23,950 bases of DNA, from positions 1 through 23,950 of IMG/VR virus record IMGVR_UViG_3300032770_001054. The stretch is one strand, 5' to 3'. The translations under genes and the position numbers were made by a program. Source of the stretch: a virus. The notes under the pieces were generated by a model. That model did no database searches. It was not told where the DNA came from and worked only from the letters and a program-made list of their open reading frames with translations. Positions 6,661 to 21,663 of the stretch are shown here, piece after piece (within the stretch, counting starts at the first letter, position 1; every line of letters starts with the position of its first letter).

Positions 6661-6679
6661 GACGGTTCTCAGTCTTCAG

Positions 6680-6819
6680 CTATCAGTTCCCTGTTGTGGA
6701 TCGTGGTTCGTCGATCGTCGTTCGTTGCTCCACCATCTGGCATATGATCGAATGAAACCGAGAACTGAGGATCGATCACTTGTTCCAATCGACGATCGGC
6801 AATCGAAAATCGAAGATTG
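6680..6819. repeat. Intergenic paired word-repeat (inverted arms)
   Basis: Words based on TTCGTCGATCGTCGTTCG (about 6706-6725) on the left and CAATCGACGATCGGCAATCG (about 6786-6805) on the right are near reverse complements sharing the core CGATCGTCG/CGACGATCG, so the gap can fold into an imperfect long hairpin. It lies between the hub gene and the 59-aa gene. No coding frame with a ribosome site is seen. Confidence 0.6.
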
Positions 6820-12824: not shown

Positions 12825-13039
12825 TCAGTGACAAGTGACAAGTGACGAGTGACAAGTCAACTCATCCGAAACAGGCGCCCGGGCGCGCCGGGCAATTGAA
12901 GCCATCCACCGCCGGCCGCCCCGTTCCGCAGAGGCCGCGCGGCTTCCGCTGGCGCCTGCGCCAGACCCTGCGCAGGTTCAGCCAGCCGCCGTAACGCTTG
13001 CGAGTGACTCGCTCGTCACTTGTCACTCGCCACTCATCA
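12825..13039. repeat. Inverted-arm repeat flanking a 120-bp island between capsid and decoration genes
   Basis: The left arm (12829-12863) is built from GACAAGTGAC and GACGAGTGAC words. The right arm (13005-13039) has CGTCACTTGTCACTCGCC, largely the reverse complement. Between them (about 12866-13000) lies non-repetitive, GC-rich sequence with a minus-strand open frame (RRLAEPAQGLAQAPAEAARP, then LRNGAAGGGWLQLPG) that has no usable ATG or ribosome site. It may be a decayed small gene or a cargo of the repeat. Confidence 0.6.
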
Positions 13040-13525
13040 CTACACTTTGGTCTGAGCGAAATTCAATTCCACTTGCACCACGTCGTTCAGGTTGCTGACG
13101 TTGTGCAGCGCCATGCCCACCGGATAAACCGTGGTGCCGGCGGCTTCGCTCACCGCCTTCACCCGGCCGTAGACGTCCGCGATGTTCACCAGCTGGCCCT
13201 GATTGATGGCTCCGGCCGCAATGCAACGCGCGATCCCGTTCACCTGCAGCGTCAAGCCGCGATTCTGCAGGTTGTACAGCGTGGGTGGCGTGCCCGTCAC
13301 AGTGGACGGATTCGTGCCCTGCGGCACGAAGTAGTTCGGCTCCACGAAGTGCTCCACCGTGACGCCGAGTACGCCCGGCGCGTTGGCCGCGGCGGGCAGC
13401 GCGGCGAACTGCTGCGATTGCGTCGACGGATTGGCCGTCGATTGCACCAGCGCCGTGAACTTGCAGATCCTCACGTTCGCGTCCGCCCGAAACCCGAGTG
13501 TCAGTCCGTTGGTTGCTCCTGCCAT
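13040..13525 (-). CDS. Capsid decoration/cement protein (DUF2190-like)
   Basis: This 161-aa beta-rich protein begins MAGATNGLTLGFRADANVRI. Its C-terminal half (GLTLQVNGIARCIAAGAINQ, GQLVNIADVYGRVKAVSEAA, YPVGMALHNVSNLNDVVQVE) has the short-strand, Gly-turn pattern of DUF2190/cement proteins, which stabilise the capsid at three-fold sites. The ribosome site (GGAGGAGAAA before ATG) is among the strongest here, as expected for a highly expressed virion protein. Its stop is close to the repeat element that precedes the capsid gene. It lies between the protease/scaffold gene and the capsid gene. Confidence 0.65.
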   Translation of the reverse strand: MAGATNGLTLGFRADANVRICKFTALVQSTANPSTQSQQFAALPAAANAPGVLGVTVEHFVEPNYFVPQGTNPSTVTGTPPTLYNLQNRGLTLQVNGIARCIAAGAINQGQLVNIADVYGRVKAVSEAAGTTVYPVGMALHNVSNLNDVVQVELNFAQTKV

Positions 13526-15281: not shown

Positions 15282-15450
15282 AGCTCCCTGCTCCTCGCGG
15301 CCTATTCCCTATTCATATGCAACCGGCAACTGACGAGTGACAACGGACGACTTCGCCACTCGCCACTCCCTGCGCTACTCCCTGTTCCCCTCGACCTCAC
15401 CGACGTCCAACCGACCACTGACCACGGACGGCGGACGACGGACAGCGGAC
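15200..15450. repeat. Paired word-repeat spanning the portal/protease junction, partly coding
   Basis: GTCGGTTGTCCGTGGTCGGTGG-type words (about 15212-15233), inside the protease start, are complementary (14 of 15 bases) to CCAACCGACCACTGACCACGGA (about 15408-15429), inside the portal's 3' end. The space between (15282-15374) is filled with GACGAGTGACAACGGACGAC and CGCCACTCGCCACTCC words. The element has therefore become coding at both edges, giving ATDHGQPTSR in one protein and AVRRPPSVVSGRLDV in the other. Confidence 0.55.
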
Positions 15451-16937
15451 GGACTCTCCGGCGGCAGCGCCAGTTCCTCGCGAATGAAGCTGCGCAAATT
15501 CTCTTCGCTCACCACCAGCCCCGCTTGCGCGAACTGGGTGAGCGCTTCCACGATGTCTTCGAGGCCGCGCGCCTGGACGTTGGCCGGCACCAGGCGCGGT
15601 ACCGGCGCGTCGTCGCCGAAGTTGTAGGAGACGAGCCGCCGTACGGTGCTGTTGGTGATGTCAAGCGCGATCTGGTCGGCGAGGTTCTGCAGCGCCAGCA
15701 GGAAAAAGTCGCCATGCTGCTTGCCCAGCGCGCGCGATCCGTGCTCCGACTGGCCCAGGTCCATGAACAGCGCCAGCGCCGCGCGGGAGATCATCACGTT
15801 GTGGTGCTCGATGCTCGGCGCCAAGTCGCGCACCCGCCCCTCATAGCCTACAATTCTGAATCCCGAGGCGGCGTCGCCCGGCGGCTCAACCATTCCCGTA
15901 GCCTCGTGCGCCGCCAGCTGGGTTACGAAGTTGTAGGCGGCGGCGCGGTCCTCGGCGGAAAACCCCGGCGCCAGCTTGAAGACCGGCACACCCAGGGAGT
16001 TGCGCTCGCACGCGATGGCGTCAATCCGGTAGAGGTTGCTCTTCACGTACCAGTGCGGGTACATGGGACGTTGCAGCGAGATACCCCAGAAGTTGGCGCC
16101 TTCCTGCTGGTAGGTGAAGACGCAGCACTTGTCCGCCGGCACCACGACATTCACGTATTGGCCCCCGCGGTAGCCATACTGCTCGAGCGCCAGCAGCGTT
16201 TCGCCGTCGGCCTCGGTGTGCCAGCGATAAAAGGTGATGGGCAGCCGCGCCGCCAGCTTGCGCAAGCGAACGCGGCCGCCGTCCACGGTCCAGACGTCTT
16301 CGTGCACGGCGCAGCCAAAATCGAGCATTAGCAGGGCGTTGCGCACCACGTCGTCCCAGTTCTGCGTGGCCCATCCGCCGGTCGAGGTTCGGAATTCCAG
16401 GCCGCCGAAGAGATTCGCTCTGACGAATTGCGCAATTTCCCGCCCCTTGGCGGCCGTCGCGCGACCAGCGCCGTTCGAAGAGATCGGATGATCGGATGAT
16501 CGGGTCATCGGTTCATTGTCTGGTTGATCGCCCGATGGCCAGATCACCCGATCGCCCGATGGAACGACTTCCCACTTCGCGCTCAAGACGGGCAACTTGC
16601 ACGCCGCCAAAGTCGCCCTCACCTGCGCGTCCCCGCGCCGCATCTTTTCGTAAATCGGCAGCGCGTTGCGTCCGGCCAACTCCCCGTTGTACTCGCCCAG
16701 GTCCTCCAGGAATCCGCTGACGATCGGCGTGCCGGGAATACCCAGCGTGAACGCCGTCGGCCGATGCTCGCCCGGCGGCGGCGTAGGAGGAGGTACCGGC
16801 GCGCTGGCTCCTGGTAAGAGCCAGGGCGCCGGTCCTCCGGGGGGAGGGAAACCTATTTCACGATCGCGTGTGGCCAGCGCCGTATCGAGCCGCGCGGCGC
16901 GTGTGGAATTTCCGTTCCTGTTGACCGGTCTGCGCAT
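15375..16937 (-). CDS. Portal protein, DUF935 family (Mu gp29 type)
   Basis: This 520-aa protein begins with a disordered Pro/Gly-rich 55 residues. The DUF935 core has LPIYEKMRRGDAQVRATLAA, KLPVLSAKWEV, FVRANLFGGLEF, DDVVRNALLMLDFGCAVHED, FTYQQEGANFWGISLQRPMY, ACERNSLGVPVFKLAPGFSA, FMDLGQSEHGSRALGKQHGD and the long helix FFLLALQNLADQIALDITNS. Twelve copies form the DNA channel at the capsid vertex. Length is close to Mu gp29 (about 512 aa). Residues about 126-152 (VIWPSGDQPDNEPMTRSSDH) are encoded by an in-frame word-repeat array, and the last 25 residues derive from another. No ribosome site stands out other than AAGGA. The next gene is the protease, so Mu F is missing. Confidence 0.85.
   Translation of the reverse strand: MRRPVNRNGNSTRAARLDTALATRDREIGFPPPGGPAPWLLPGASAPVPPPTPPPGEHRPTAFTLGIPGTPIVSGFLEDLGEYNGELAGRNALPIYEKMRRGDAQVRATLAACKLPVLSAKWEVVPSGDRVIWPSGDQPDNEPMTRSSDHPISSNGAGRATAAKGREIAQFVRANLFGGLEFRTSTGGWATQNWDDVVRNALLMLDFGCAVHEDVWTVDGGRVRLRKLAARLPITFYRWHTEADGETLLALEQYGYRGGQYVNVVVPADKCCVFTYQQEGANFWGISLQRPMYPHWYVKSNLYRIDAIACERNSLGVPVFKLAPGFSAEDRAAAYNFVTQLAAHEATGMVEPPGDAASGFRIVGYEGRVRDLAPSIEHHNVMISRAALALFMDLGQSEHGSRALGKQHGDFFLLALQNLADQIALDITNSTVRRLVSYNFGDDAPVPRLVPANVQARGLEDIVEALTQFAQAGLVVSEENLRSFIREELALPPESPSAVRRPPSVVSGRLDVGEVEGNRE
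16482..16562. repeat. In-frame word-repeat hairpin inside the portal gene
   Basis: The left arm (GATCGGATGATCGGATGATC then GGGTCATCGG, 16482-16511) and right arm (GATCGCCCGATGGCCAGATC then ACCCGATCGCCCGATGG, 16526-16562) are partial reverse complements built from 8-9 bp words. It adds about 27 residues to the N-terminal third of the portal without breaking the frame. Confidence 0.75.
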
Positions 16938-17214: not shown

Positions 17215-17823
17215 TTACCCAGCTACCAGTGAAGGGTGATTTGGGCGGCCGGGAAACTCGCCGGATCCGCTTCTCCCTCCTGACCTCGCTCGCTCGATCG
17301 CCTTGGCCGCGCAATCAGGGCACATGCCGTGTGTGAAATCAGCCTCCGAATGGGCGGCGACGTAGGCCTCGACTTCATTCCAGTACCCGCGGTCATCGCG
17401 AATCTTCTTGCACCAGGCACAGACAGGAATCAATCCCCGCAGCGTCTTCACGCTCGCGATAGCCTTCTGAAGTCTGGCTTCCTGCGCGTCTTCCAACCTT
17501 CTGCGGCTGCTCACCAGCAAAGCGACCACGACGAAGAAACTGAGTACGATCGCGCCGTTCCAGAAAGGAATGAAGGCACGCCCGTATTGGCACCCGGACC
17601 GCAGGTCCACCCCCAGAAGCGATCCCGCACAGACTGCGGAGACCAAGAGCCCTGCTGTCCTCCCTGCCGTCCAACTGGCCAGGCTCACCGGAAGCAGGCA
17701 GAGACTTGAGACGGCGACTTCGTCACCGGTCACGACGTCAAGAAGCGTCACGGCGCCCACCAGACTCACCGTCGTCAGGGCCAGCAAGAGCTTCGAGTTC
17801 TCCAGGCGCTTCCAGTAACCCAT
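17215..17823 (-). CDS. Four-helix membrane protein with C-terminal CxxC signalling-type domain
   Basis: ATG 17823 is preferred over a GTG at 17877 because AAAGG lies about nine bases upstream, giving 202 aa. Four membrane helices are visible (LLLALTTVSLVGAVTLLDVV; VSSLCLLPVSLASWTAG; AGLLVSAVCAGSLLGVDL; FWNGAIVLSFFVVVALLVSS). A short coiled coil (RRRLEDAQEARLQKAIASVK) follows, then LRGLIPVCAWCKKIRDDRGY and a CPDC. That last module (CxxC...CPDC around GYWNEVEAYV) is known from the C-termini of PAS/GAF sensor and response-regulator proteins. Here no kinase or cyclase is attached, so it is a sensor fragment carried in the phage cassette, perhaps a moron. It abuts the winged-helix gene. Confidence 0.65.
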   Translation of the reverse strand: MGYWKRLENSKLLLALTTVSLVGAVTLLDVVTGDEVAVSSLCLLPVSLASWTAGRTAGLLVSAVCAGSLLGVDLRSGCQYGRAFIPFWNGAIVLSFFVVVALLVSSRRRLEDAQEARLQKAIASVKTLRGLIPVCAWCKKIRDDRGYWNEVEAYVAAHSEADFTHGMCPDCAAKAIERARSGGRSGSGEFPGRPNHPSLVAG

Positions 17824-17889
17824 GGGTCGAAACCTTTTCCCACCCTCGGCGGCGAAGGCCTTGAATCGCCCGGCCACCGTATAGGAAAT

Positions 17890-18764: not shown

Positions 18765-18910
18765 ATTCAGTCAGTGGTTCGCTTTCGGCAGTGCGTCAGT
18801 TTGTCAGTACCTCAGTTCCACCCTGCCTGCTGCTTACCGCCTCCTGCCTCCTGCCTTGGTGCCGACCCCCACCTGCTGACAGCTATTCCCTATTCGCTAC
18901 CGCCTACTCC
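18765..18910. repeat. Intergenic word-repeat
   Basis: CGGCAGTGCGTCAGTTTGTC and ACCGCCTCCTGCCTCCTGCC words, then ATTCCCTATTCGCTACCGCC and TACTCCCTAC. The block ends at the stop codon of the 36-aa frame (18911). Confidence 0.55.
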
Positions 18911-19021
18911 CTACTTACGACCCGCTCCAGATTTCCCGCGTCCGCCCGCGCTCATGAGCCCAAGCCCGCTAGGGTCGCTTGCGGCTGCGAGCGGCGGGCG
19001 GTATACGGGATGAGGCACCAT
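18911..19021 (-). CDS. Possible 36-aa peptide
   Basis: An ATG at 19021 opens MVPHPVYRPPLAAASDPSGL, then GLMSAGGRGKSGAGRK, ending in TAG at 18911. It is Pro/Gly-rich with a basic end and no membrane helix. The frame exactly fills the one non-repetitive island between two word-repeat arrays, and other such islands are genes. The ribosome site is poor. I rank this as a plausible but unproven small gene. Confidence 0.3.
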   Translation of the reverse strand: MVPHPVYRPPLAAASDPSGLGLMSAGGRGKSGAGRK

Positions 19022-19027
19022 GCGCCT

Positions 19028-19225
19028 GATGCCAGGCCTTCACCTGAGCCTGAATGTCTCAAACCTGGCACCTGAAAGCTGGCACCAAAACTCTTCAGTC
19101 GTCAGTTCAGTTGGCAGTCGGCAGTTGGCGGTCGGCAGCTACTGAATCGTTCCGCCAAGGGACGACCTGCCACTGCCGGCTGCCTACTGCGTACTGCCAA
19201 CTGCCTACCGCCTACTGCCTACTGC
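19028..19225. repeat. Intergenic word-repeat
   Basis: AAACCTGGCACCTGAAAGCT and GGCACC words (about 19061-19085), GTTGGCAGTCGGCAGTTGGC with GGTCGGCAG (about 19110-19138), answered by GCCACTGCCGGCTGCCTACT and repeated TGCCTACTGCC words (about 19170-19228). The arms are complementary (GGCAGTCGGCAG against CTGCCGGCTGCC). Confidence 0.65.
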
Positions 19226-19495
19226 CTAACAGCTCCCCAGAGCCGCTGACGCCGACCAGATCTGGTCCAAGGTCGGCTCTCCTCTCTCCGGGTGCTCCTG
19301 CAGGTGCTCCTGCATCATCTCCAGCAGTCGATCGTGAGCCCGCTGCCGTTCGCGGCACACGAGCACCAACTCGCGCACCGCCCAGCTCAAACGGCTCATC
19401 AGCATCAGAAACCCGACGGCGACTACCACCACCGCCAGGACGATCATGGGGGCCAGAACGCCCTCCCACACTTCGCTAAGTTCACCGATAATCAT
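19226..19495 (-). CDS. Small single-span membrane protein
   Basis: The 89-aa protein has an excellent ribosome site (GGGAGGG, seven bases before ATG). Residues 14-34 (LAPMIVLAVVVVAVGFLMLM) form a membrane helix. A basic amphipathic helix follows (RELVLVCRERQRAHDRLLEM then MQEHLQEHPERGEP) and the end is polar. The layout, short N-terminus outside and helical cytoplasmic tail, recalls small lysis-cassette proteins (spanin or holin partner), and the 3TM holin lies downstream. It is the first gene after the terminase and the tandem hairpin repeat. No family is recognised. Confidence 0.65.
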   Translation of the reverse strand: MIIGELSEVWEGVLAPMIVLAVVVVAVGFLMLMSRLSWAVRELVLVCRERQRAHDRLLEMMQEHLQEHPERGEPTLDQIWSASAALGSC

Positions 19496-19606: not shown

Positions 19607-19990
19607 CCTGGCTTGACGAAAACCTTTCGCCTTTCCGCGAGGCAGATGTAAAAGAATTAAGGAAAGAAGGGCTTGCCGCCCCGCCGGAAGGCCAGAGGCT
19701 TTCCGCAAGGCAGGCGGCAAAGCCGCTCCTGACCCCAACACCGCCGCTGCTTGTGACTCAACACCGCAATTTTCAGCTGCTCTTCCCATCGTCTCTTCGT
19801 CGTTCCGCGCCCCAGTCAGAAGACAAGTAAGGAGAGGAACGGTTTGCCACCGGGCCGGAAGGCCCGAGCCGTTCCGCAAAGCGGACGGCAAAGCCGCTTC
19901 TCCGCCAACACGCTCTCCACCTGACCGAATACCGCCGCCCGTTCCGATCGAACCCCGCGGCTTTTCAGTTTTTCTTCCCATCGCGATCTC
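19607..19990. repeat. Tandem hairpin element with GGAA tetraloop
   Basis: Two units start at TAAGG (19658 and 19828, 170 bases apart) and end at CTTCCCATCG (19782-19791 and 19974-19983). Each has a core stem closed by a GGAA loop (GCC-GGAA-GGC at 19683-19692; CGGGCC-GGAA-GGCCCG at 19851-19866). An outer stem changes in sequence but keeps pairing (GGAAAG/CTTTCC in unit one, GGAACGG/CCGTTCC in unit two). A third stem of GGCTTGCCGCC/GGCGGCAAAGCC type follows. Traces of a further unit lie at 19607-19650. No gene is seen in 19496-20034 other than this. Confidence 0.7.
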
Positions 19991-20034: not shown

Positions 20035-21663
20035 TTAAAACACCCAATCCTTCACTCCCGAGATCACCGGCGTGCCGAACAGCCGCCCGACTTCGGCGAG
20101 GTGATACGCGTCCGGCTGCGCGGCGGCAGCCTCGGCCAGGCAGAAGGCCCACCAGTGATCGGCATGACCGAAGCGCGTGTCATGCTCGGCGTCGAAGCGC
20201 GTCAGGCCCAGCGCGTTGACGCTCTTCTTCACGCTGCGGAACGATTGCCGGATGGCGTTCGAGTCCGCCAGCCGCACCTTCTGCTCCTCCATGCGGCGCT
20301 TGGCCATCACCGCCATGGCTTCCTTTTTCGGCTGCGTAAACTGCACGCCCTCGACCTGTCCGGGAAAATCGCGCTCCAAGGCCTCGAAGATCACCAGGCC
20401 CATGCCGCCCTTGTCGATTGTCAGGCGCTTGAGCTGCGGCATCAGGGCGCGCGCCTCGCGGATCTGGTCCGGGGTCGGCGTGTTCTTCATCTCGATCACG
20501 CCGCGCGTCCAGGTGACGTCGCCGACGAGCTCGTTGATCCAGATCACCGACAGGTCGCGATTGCGGGCGATGTCCCAGCCTGCGTAAAGCATCGGGTGAT
20601 CGGGTGATCGGGTGACCGGGTCATTGAAACGGGTGCCGCCGGCTTCCGATGACCCGATGATCCGATGATCCGATGATCCGATGGCCAGATCGACGCTGGC
20701 GTCTGAACTGACGCACGACTGGAACAATTCCGGCGAGATCCATTCCGACGCTTGCGTGACGAACTGGCAGCAATACTCCTGCAGCCAGGTATCGTCGTCG
20801 CAGCCGGCGCGGACCTCTTCGGGATCGAGCGGCAGTCCGTCCTCGACGGCCATGAAGATGTCGCACCAATGGCCGGACCAGGGACTGAGAGCGTGACGAT
20901 TGGCGATTGACGATTGCCCGTTCGCCGCTTTCGACGTTCCATTCTCGCCCCCTGCGGACTGCCGACTGCCGGCTGCCGACTGCACACGCACTGGCTGGCT
21001 CACCGGTTTGACCCCCGAGTCCAGTCCCAACTGTTTCGCCAGCTCGTAGAACTTCCCCTGCTGCCCGTTAGGCGTGGAGAGAATCCGCATCGCATAGCCT
21101 AGCGAGACCTGGCGATAGACCGCCGTGAAGATGGCCTGCGAGTCCTTGTGGAAGGCGAACTCGTCGAGCACCACGTCTCCGGTGTAGCCTCGCGCCGTGT
21201 CCGGGTTGGCCGCGAGCACGATGATCCGCGACCCGTTGCTGAACCTGATTTCATGCTGGAGCGCGGAAGTGCCGTCAAATGACCGGTTCGGCTCCCACTC
21301 GGCAGCCACTCCCTTGAAGCCGTCCACCCACGCCTTCGCCTTTTCACCCAGTTCCAGCGCCTGTCGCTCTGAGCGGGAGAGAAAGATAATGTTGCGCCGC
21401 GGGTTTCTCAGGCAGCGGTCTACGGCCCAGGCTGCGGAAGCCGTCGAGTATCCGATTTGCGCGCTCTTGACGGCAATCGCGAAACGCGCTGGGTCGGTCG
21501 CCCATCGCATCTGGTATGGCCGAAGCAAGCCGTCGAGGCTAAGATTTCTGGCGGCAACCCCGAGCGTTACGCTCGGCGCCTCGGCCTCAGGATGCGCCTC
21601 TTGCGGTTCAGGCCGGGGGGCGGTCGCGGAATCAAAGCTCGTGTTGTTGCGCTTACGCTTCAT
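20035..21663 (-). CDS. Terminase large subunit
   Basis: This 542-aa protein packages DNA into the prohead. The ATPase half has a Walker A-like KSAQIGYST (residues 66-74), which resembles lambda gpA's KSARVGYSK more than a classical P-loop. It also has VVLDEFAF (164-171) with D167/E168 and the coupling motif STPNG (196-200). The nuclease half starts GWDIARNRDLSVIW (D364), with KGGMGLVIFEALERDF and the C-terminal FGHADHWWAFCLAEAAA. ATGA overlap couples it to the upstream small-terminase candidate. Residues about 227-256 and 327-358 are repeat-encoded insertions between otherwise conserved regions. It is of roughly normal length even so. Confidence 0.9.
   Translation of the reverse strand: MKRKRNNTSFDSATAPRPEPQEAHPEAEAPSVTLGVAARNLSLDGLLRPYQMRWATDPARFAIAVKSAQIGYSTASAAWAVDRCLRNPRRNIIFLSRSERQALELGEKAKAWVDGFKGVAAEWEPNRSFDGTSALQHEIRFSNGSRIIVLAANPDTARGYTGDVVLDEFAFHKDSQAIFTAVYRQVSLGYAMRILSTPNGQQGKFYELAKQLGLDSGVKPVSQPVRVQSAAGSRQSAGGENGTSKAANGQSSIANRHALSPWSGHWCDIFMAVEDGLPLDPEEVRAGCDDDTWLQEYCCQFVTQASEWISPELFQSCVSSDASVDLAIGSSDHRIIGSSEAGGTRFNDPVTRSPDHPMLYAGWDIARNRDLSVIWINELVGDVTWTRGVIEMKNTPTPDQIREARALMPQLKRLTIDKGGMGLVIFEALERDFPGQVEGVQFTQPKKEAMAVMAKRRMEEQKVRLADSNAIRQSFRSVKKSVNALGLTRFDAEHDTRFGHADHWWAFCLAEAAAAQPDAYHLAEVGRLFGTPVISGVKDWVF
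20591..20684. repeat. In-frame word-repeat hairpin inside terminase
   Basis: The left arm (ATCGGGTGATCGGGTGATCG onward, 20591-20625) and the right arm (CCGATGACCCGATGATCCGA onward, 20646-20684, with four GATGATCC-like words) are near reverse complements with a loop of about 20 bases. They add about 32 residues (LAIGSSDHRIIGSS to RSPDHPM) immediately before the nuclease domain Asp. Confidence 0.8.
20897..20983. repeat. Second in-frame word-repeat array inside terminase
   Basis: CGATTGGCGATTGACGATTG (20897-20916) and TGCGGACTGCCGACTGCCGG onward (20953-20983) are typical words of the intergenic arrays. Translated, they give QSAAGSRQSAGG and NGQSSIANRH, within the linker between ATPase and nuclease halves. 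The two word types are not complementary to each other, so this is a composite array. Confidence 0.7.

Follow-up and report, generated by a model that had tools for sequence, protein, structure and literature searches.

In-frame inverted arrays of 7-8 bp words in the terminase and portal genes of a Mu-like phage: probable miniature relatives of a mobile S23p-carrying element

The window (the whole stretch of DNA analyzed) is a 23,950-bp IMG/VR virus sequence, which profile and PHROG annotation assigned to a Mu-like phage. Its minus strand carries the genes for TerL (Terminase_6N/6C), the portal protein (Portal_Mu), a Mu-like I protease and a major head protein (phrog_1005), and its nearest relatives are Acidobacteriota prophages and viral contigs. 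A membrane protein ORF lying within the structural cluster (17215-17877) had no counterpart in the related phages searched. Repeats were called with TRF and with our own array detector, whose threshold was loosened from a stricter initial setting. The genes and arrays concerned are the following:

20035-21663, minus strand: gene of the large terminase TerL, 542 aa (PF03237, 3.7e-15; PF17289, 1e-12; PHROG terminase large subunit)
20591-20621, minus strand: TerL site 2, arm nearer the nuclease Asp, 3.9 copies of the 8-mer ATCGGGTG (plus strand)
20622-20644, minus strand: loop separating the inverted arms of TerL site 2
20645-20690, minus strand: second arm of TerL site 2, an array of the 8-mer TCCGATGA, inverted relative to 20591-20621
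20894-20927, minus strand: TerL site 1, 7-mer array CAATCGN (coding strand), common to L081 and L084
20952-20983, minus strand: TerL site 1, 7-mer array CAGTCGG (coding strand); CAGTCGA in L081, AGAAGTC in L084
15375-16937, minus strand: portal gene, likewise carrying such an insert (PF06074, 9.5e-44)
16482-16567, minus strand: pair of inverted 8-mer arrays in a linker of the portal protein, at residues ~124-152 (fold z = -3.7)
15410-15450, minus strand: 7-mer array coding the portal C-terminal tail (RRPPSVVSGR)
19108-19228, no strand: typical intergenic member, CAGTYGG array, spacer, inverted CTGCCTA array (fold z = -5.7)
18786-18915, no strand: intergenic cluster of 7/8-mer arrays (array detection)
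12827-13041, no strand: intergenic AGTGACA array and inverted TCGTCAC array flanking a spacer (array detection)
6669-6817, no strand: intergenic 7-mer arrays, GATCGTC and CAATCGA (array detection)

The window has 10.0 period-7 and 3.3 period-8 arrays per 10 kb, where resampling under an order-2 Markov model yields 0.8 and 0.4, respectively; the remaining periods are close to background, except for 14 (a harmonic) and for 6 and 12 (codon-related). The window thus contains tandem 7-8 bp units above expectation, as LSSR/STRR do. About 19 of the 28 arrays counted fall in the non-genic 14% of the sequence. The gaps between the phage genes are filled with the same kind of words as the TerL inserts, and such words also occur in host chromosomes, in agreement with the earlier note, which had described the TerL segments as made of gap-type repeats. 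The length of the words had to be corrected: it is strictly 7 or 8 bp, instead of the 8-11 bp then given. Rfam gave no match in the window, and a known RNA family was therefore rejected as the identity of the arrays. A 65-nt direct repeat (82% identical, 19666-19730 and 19837-19901), located between TerL and the next gene, belongs to a separate repeat family.

Within TerL, both TRF and our detector recovered the two repeat segments where they had first been noticed, at residues ~222-257 (site 1) and ~327-357 (site 2). In these calls the second arm of site 2 extends over 20645-20683 (4.9 copies) and the CAATCGN array of site 1 over 20894-20916. Site 2 (20591-20690) is indeed an inverted pair, and folds as a single hairpin (RNA fold z = -3.4). 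Site 1 has two arrays in direct orientation, each with its own word (CAGTCGG and CAATCGN), and forms no hairpin (RNA fold z = +0.1). Terminal inverted complementary arms, a trait of S23p/IVS-type elements, are thus present at TerL site 2 and in the portal pair and absent at TerL site 1. An alignment of TerL homologues revealed both segments as clean insertions between conserved blocks: site 1 is located between the ATPase and nuclease halves, and site 2 between 'SSDAS' and 'LYAGWD', immediately ahead of the nuclease aspartate, so that the linker positions proposed from the letters alone hold. The TerL proteins of L002, L004, L006, L013 and L021 align without both segments, L091 has only a short non-repeat sequence at the insert places and no arrays, and the site 2 array is absent in L002, L004 and L091; these empty and filled sites of TerL are seen at the level of protein alignment only. 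Non-repeat sequence of the same length, which would have spoken against insertion, was not encountered at these positions in unrelated phages. A TerL homologue with frame changes (L087, 1717-3110) lies beside a TTGCCAC-type array (VTSGEW...TCHLAL), and is possibly a terminase broken by such an insert.

Going beyond the earlier note, we found a third inverted pair, in the portal gene, as well as array-like segments in the protease of relatives, turnover between lineages and a pointer to an S23p element. The word in the portal linker is an 8-mer in the window phage and L001, GTGTCGG in L084, GAACAGG in L160, CAGTCAG in L089, an AAGAGAC pair in L090 and AGTTTCG in L081; no array was detected in the portal linker of L083, L087, L088 and L091. 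The array-like segments of the protease lie in linkers of L084 and L160.

At TerL site 2, all of the filled sites contain inverted pairs, with a different word in each case: ATCGGATC in the window phage, ATTGCCG in L081, ATTGACTC in L084, AGTTCGG in L082, GTCCGCA in L089 and ATTGAGTC in L090. The presence of this insert changed at least three times on the tree. In L082, a GGGAGTC pair within the nuclease domain forms a third insert of TerL. The window phage, L081 and L084 form a supported trio with ~90% identity of the TerL core, and different words at the same place in such similar proteins indicate that the inserts turn over fast. At site 1, all three retain the CAATCGN array. The array complexes of the window phage and L081 are homologous here and do not differ in length, but have become homogenised to CAGTCGG in the former and CAGTCGA in the latter. 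The spacers of different elements are unrelated, with similarity only between orthologous loci and in two self-matches; it is therefore the anatomy that is common, and not the sequence. On the same grounds, the dissimilarity extending to the flanks, one conserved mobile core sequence was rejected.

Whether these segments act as peptide or as RNA had been left undecided. The reading frame is kept in every intact homologue. Stop triplets occur in genic arrays at 1.48 per 100 nt on the sense strand and 3.29 on the antisense strand, compared with 4.06 in intergenic arrays; the depletion on the sense strand is significant in a Wilcoxon test whose rows are not independent (P = 0.025, n = 17). Since a 7-mer array reads all three frames in turn, this depletion reflects a real constraint. 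In an AlphaFold model built with a 33-sequence alignment, TerL residues 231-257 (bar one residue) and 330-353 have pLDDT < 50, while the core exceeds 90. These data support the view that repeats have invaded an essential gene and are tolerated as peptide: because stop triplets are depleted on the coding strand, the inserts of TerL and the portal are probably translated, and a peptide is favoured over an RNA. Strong hairpins at TerL site 2 and in the portal, with none at site 1, rule out a general role as RNA.

The arrays belong to the host lineage. The G001 host chromosome yielded 115 matches to a three-copy pattern, against 13 for the reversed control; the G001 and G002 host stretches were drawn from contigs already known to contain matches, and their absolute densities are therefore somewhat inflated. 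Of the arrays pooled from phages and hosts, 42% lie no more than 120 bp from another array of the same word in inverted orientation; re-pairing the arrays gives 3.6%. Array load in prophages tracks that of their hosts (rho 0.76, n = 9), in a correlation uncorrected for phylogeny and genome size. A search of the host for genes with arrays had been suggested in the earlier note. Twelve frames span arrays in 382 kb of host chromosome, and Pfam analysis of five of them identified an OEP efflux gene (L177) and an S23p gene (L182), but several others look spurious. In the host outer-membrane efflux gene (L177, 16083-17561), a 7-mer array codes the stretch directly after the signal peptide.

The first lead to S23p was one host frame with arrays on both sides, which encodes PF05635 (23S-rRNA-intervening-sequence protein), a four-helix bundle. 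The S23p counts in G001-G009 are 17, 20, 0, 9, 5, 19, 6, 1 and 2, and prophage array density follows the host count with rho 0.85 (n = 9, again without correction for phylogeny or genome size). Around 26 S23p loci, array density falls from 53 per 10 kb at distances of up to 150 bp from the gene to ~0-3 farther out. Arrays on both sides were found at 80 of 105 Acidobacteriota S23p loci, compared with 0 of 400 random positions. In this 105-locus set the 5′ word differs from the inverted 3′ word by 0.74 mismatches of 7, against 3.06 in permuted pairs and 3.46 in direct orientation, and each S23p copy has its own array word. The specificity of S23p for its word looked strong by eye and was dropped as a candidate, S23p similarity being a weak predictor of the word in a Mantel test (r 0.11, P = 0.0065).

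We also scored 199 Acidobacteriota genomes for matches to two word patterns or their reversed forms. At least three matches were present in 51 of 99 S23p-positive genomes, compared with 3 of 100 S23p-negative ones (odds ratio 34, P = 4e-16, Spearman 0.66; phylogeny and genome size uncorrected), and S23p-negative genomes of 5-8 Mb are also free of arrays. One array-rich genome, G095, has 29 pattern matches and no detectable S23p. S23p is likewise absent from the window and from seven related phage records, which may be fragments, and had no match on annotated phages. L251 (1441-3240) contains an in-frame fusion of a decayed S23p gene with an FtsX/MacB-like permease.

Plasmid-borne S23p of cyanobacteria and Azospirillum shows the anatomy array-S23p-inverted array in most of the 14 loci examined, the exceptions being L335 (direct arrays), L336 (one side only) and L344 of Gemmatirosa (arrays not inverted). 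Related plasmids provide empty sites for these units. In the case of Trichormus plasmid C and Nostoc linckia plasmid2, the site differs by a 423-bp array-S23p-inverted array unit. Its two flanks have the sequence GTAAT in common, which represents a target duplication of 5 bp, and no array is present in the empty allele. The presence or absence of the unit as one insert with this duplication shows that the S23p unit is mobile. Beyond the two arrays flanking S23p, the detector found no others in the same 49-kb plasmid stretch, which indicates that the arrays came with S23p. In L353, a different S23p element with a different word is located at the start codon of the next gene, and the site is empty in L352; L358 carries a decayed copy consisting of the left array and an S23p fragment. 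Target duplications are clear at one S23p site (GTAAT), ATG was seen at a second, the other sites are ambiguous, and TerL is too diverged for this comparison.

S23p elements were also observed between CRISPR genes (cas6/cas4; cmr2/cmr3) in the cyanobacterial plasmids L335, L338 and L342, which may be why a survey of CRISPR associations lists 23S rRNA IVP (PMC10910872). In a Nostoc plasmid (L343, L355) an S23p element lies between the ribonucleotide reductase beta and alpha genes; this site is empty in Calothrix NIES-4105.

Taken together, it is probable that the TerL and portal inserts are gene-less miniature forms of a mobile hairpin class whose ends are inverted arrays of 7-8 bp words and whose full-length form carries S23p. 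This reading builds on what is observed: clean, in-frame, lineage-variable inserts, arrays in the gaps and at the flanks of S23p, and an S23p-bearing unit that inserts whole. Because neither the window nor the seven related records contain S23p, we call the inserts miniature relatives and not members proper. In the proposed mechanism, the full-length element would consist of inverted arrays of one 7-8 bp word flanking a single small gene, S23p, and gene-less copies would move by the same route, mobilised by S23p supplied in trans. Insertion would be nearly random, and in essential genes only in-frame, stop-free copies in flexible linkers would survive; there they would be translated into disordered loops, after which they would drift and be homogenised through slippage.

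A local DNA process, in which 7-8 nt slippage and quasi-palindrome template switching make and homogenise inverted arrays wherever they are tolerated, with S23p as a passenger, is unlikely, but would account for part of the data. The equal length and different words of TerL site 1 in the window phage and L081 represent concerted evolution, the arms co-vary as words, no sequence is common to the elements, and neither Y1 transposase nor reverse transcriptase follows array load. What such a process leaves unexplained is the joint arrival of both arrays and S23p in a single 423-bp piece, accompanied by a target duplication and seen against an array-free empty allele, together with the strong association of S23p with arrays. 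Since arrays do homogenise, slippage and hairpin correction must also act on the elements.

We consider it improbable that the arrays serve a regulatory function, as protein-binding sites, terminators or RNA elements, with their presence in TerL a regulatory feature. Their hairpins are strong (z -3 to -7.6) and regulator binding has been proposed for arrays of Geobacter (PMC2700814) and Beggiatoa (PMC4679880); however, word, length and presence vary between phages with ~90% TerL core identity, TerL site 1 does not fold, and relatives manage without arrays. Very little likelihood attaches to REP/REPIN elements mobilised by a Y1 (RAYT) transposase: these too are short dispersed palindromes, but the arrays have no conserved sequence, and Y1_Tnp counts do not track array load (G150 has 131 array matches and no Y1, G008 has 8 Y1 and few arrays), for which reason Y1/RAYT mobilisation was rejected. 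A reverse transcriptase acting in trans was discarded as well, as PF00078 was not detected in the array-rich G001, G150 and G195, drafts that may be incomplete. Despite the metagenomic source of the window, an assembly artefact or chance repeats can be given hardly any credence, since independent assemblies place arrays of differing words at identical codons, the anatomy recurs in complete plasmids, and null models give 0.4-0.8 arrays per 10 kb.

To our knowledge, no function has been known for S23p since its discovery in split 23S rRNAs, and there is no accepted origin for the heptamer repeats of bacteria. The mobile-element reading ties the two together, with empty and full sites and a target duplication, and makes conjugative cyanobacterial plasmids a concrete system for testing movement. 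It is a serious possibility, which we put forward tentatively, that a transposase-less, S23p-dependent class with arbitrary-word inverted arrays as ends explains much of the unexplained hepta- and octamer repeats in Acidobacteriota, cyanobacteria and others, and that its gene-less copies keep adding disordered linkers to essential proteins, including phage terminase and portal. In phages, the data reveal a process at the DNA level through which essential machines continually acquire new in-frame linkers; the length and sequence of the inserted peptide in TerL and the portal are thus not conserved features.

Among known systems, Rickettsia palindromic elements (RPE) consist of palindromes that sit in frame within essential protein-coding genes and are translated as surface loops. 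The TerL and portal inserts resemble them as in-frame palindromes in the loops of protein genes, tolerated as peptide in essential ones. RPEs, here compared by description, are sequence families, whereas our elements have no shared sequence: the words vary by copy and only the inverted-array anatomy is common, so that the inserts are apparently not RPEs. With MITE-like elements the S23p-bearing form in plasmids shares precise empty and full sites, but conserved terminal sequences for a transposase are lacking, the words varying by copy and the spacers being unrelated.

The STRR of cyanobacteria are tandem hepta- and octamer repeats. TAACTGA tandem repeats have been described in Beggiatoaceae (PMC4679880), GGGNATC repeats in Xanthomonas and Nostoc (PMC4692102), and paired octamer/heptamer sites on opposite strands, at variable distance and with some arrays inside genes, in Geobacter metallireducens (PMC2700814). 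Our arrays share the 7-8 bp units and similar words (GGGRNTC, CAGTTRN), but those reports deal with regulatory sites or simple repeats and, in the portions of text consulted, make no connection with S23p or with insertions into the structural genes of phages. In both sequence and structure, PF05635 resembles bAvd, which serves diversity-generating retroelements as an accessory protein (PMC10053308); unlike those systems, array-rich G001, G150 and G195 show no reverse transcriptase (PF00078).

In a search that mostly covered non-subscription literature, so that priority is not certain, we found no paper beyond Coxiella on dispersed S23p with arrays, and none linking the heptamer repeats of Geobacter, Beggiatoaceae and Xanthomonas/Nostoc to S23p. 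Another close system is the 23S rRNA IVS with an S23p ORF in Coxiella, Leptospira and Brucella, whose mobility has been suspected since the 1990s; that of Coxiella is 428 nt long, has tandem heptamers beside S23p and terminal inverted repeats, and is excised from the transcript by RNase III (PMC4990558). The ~0.4-kb unit, the S23p gene, the terminal inverted complements and the tandem heptamers by S23p are all found again in the S23p units of this study. In contrast to the IVS, however, these units are located among or within ordinary genes, exist in many copies whose words differ, and have a gene-less miniature form, and the TerL and portal inserts, without S23p, reside in protein genes and not in 23S rRNA.
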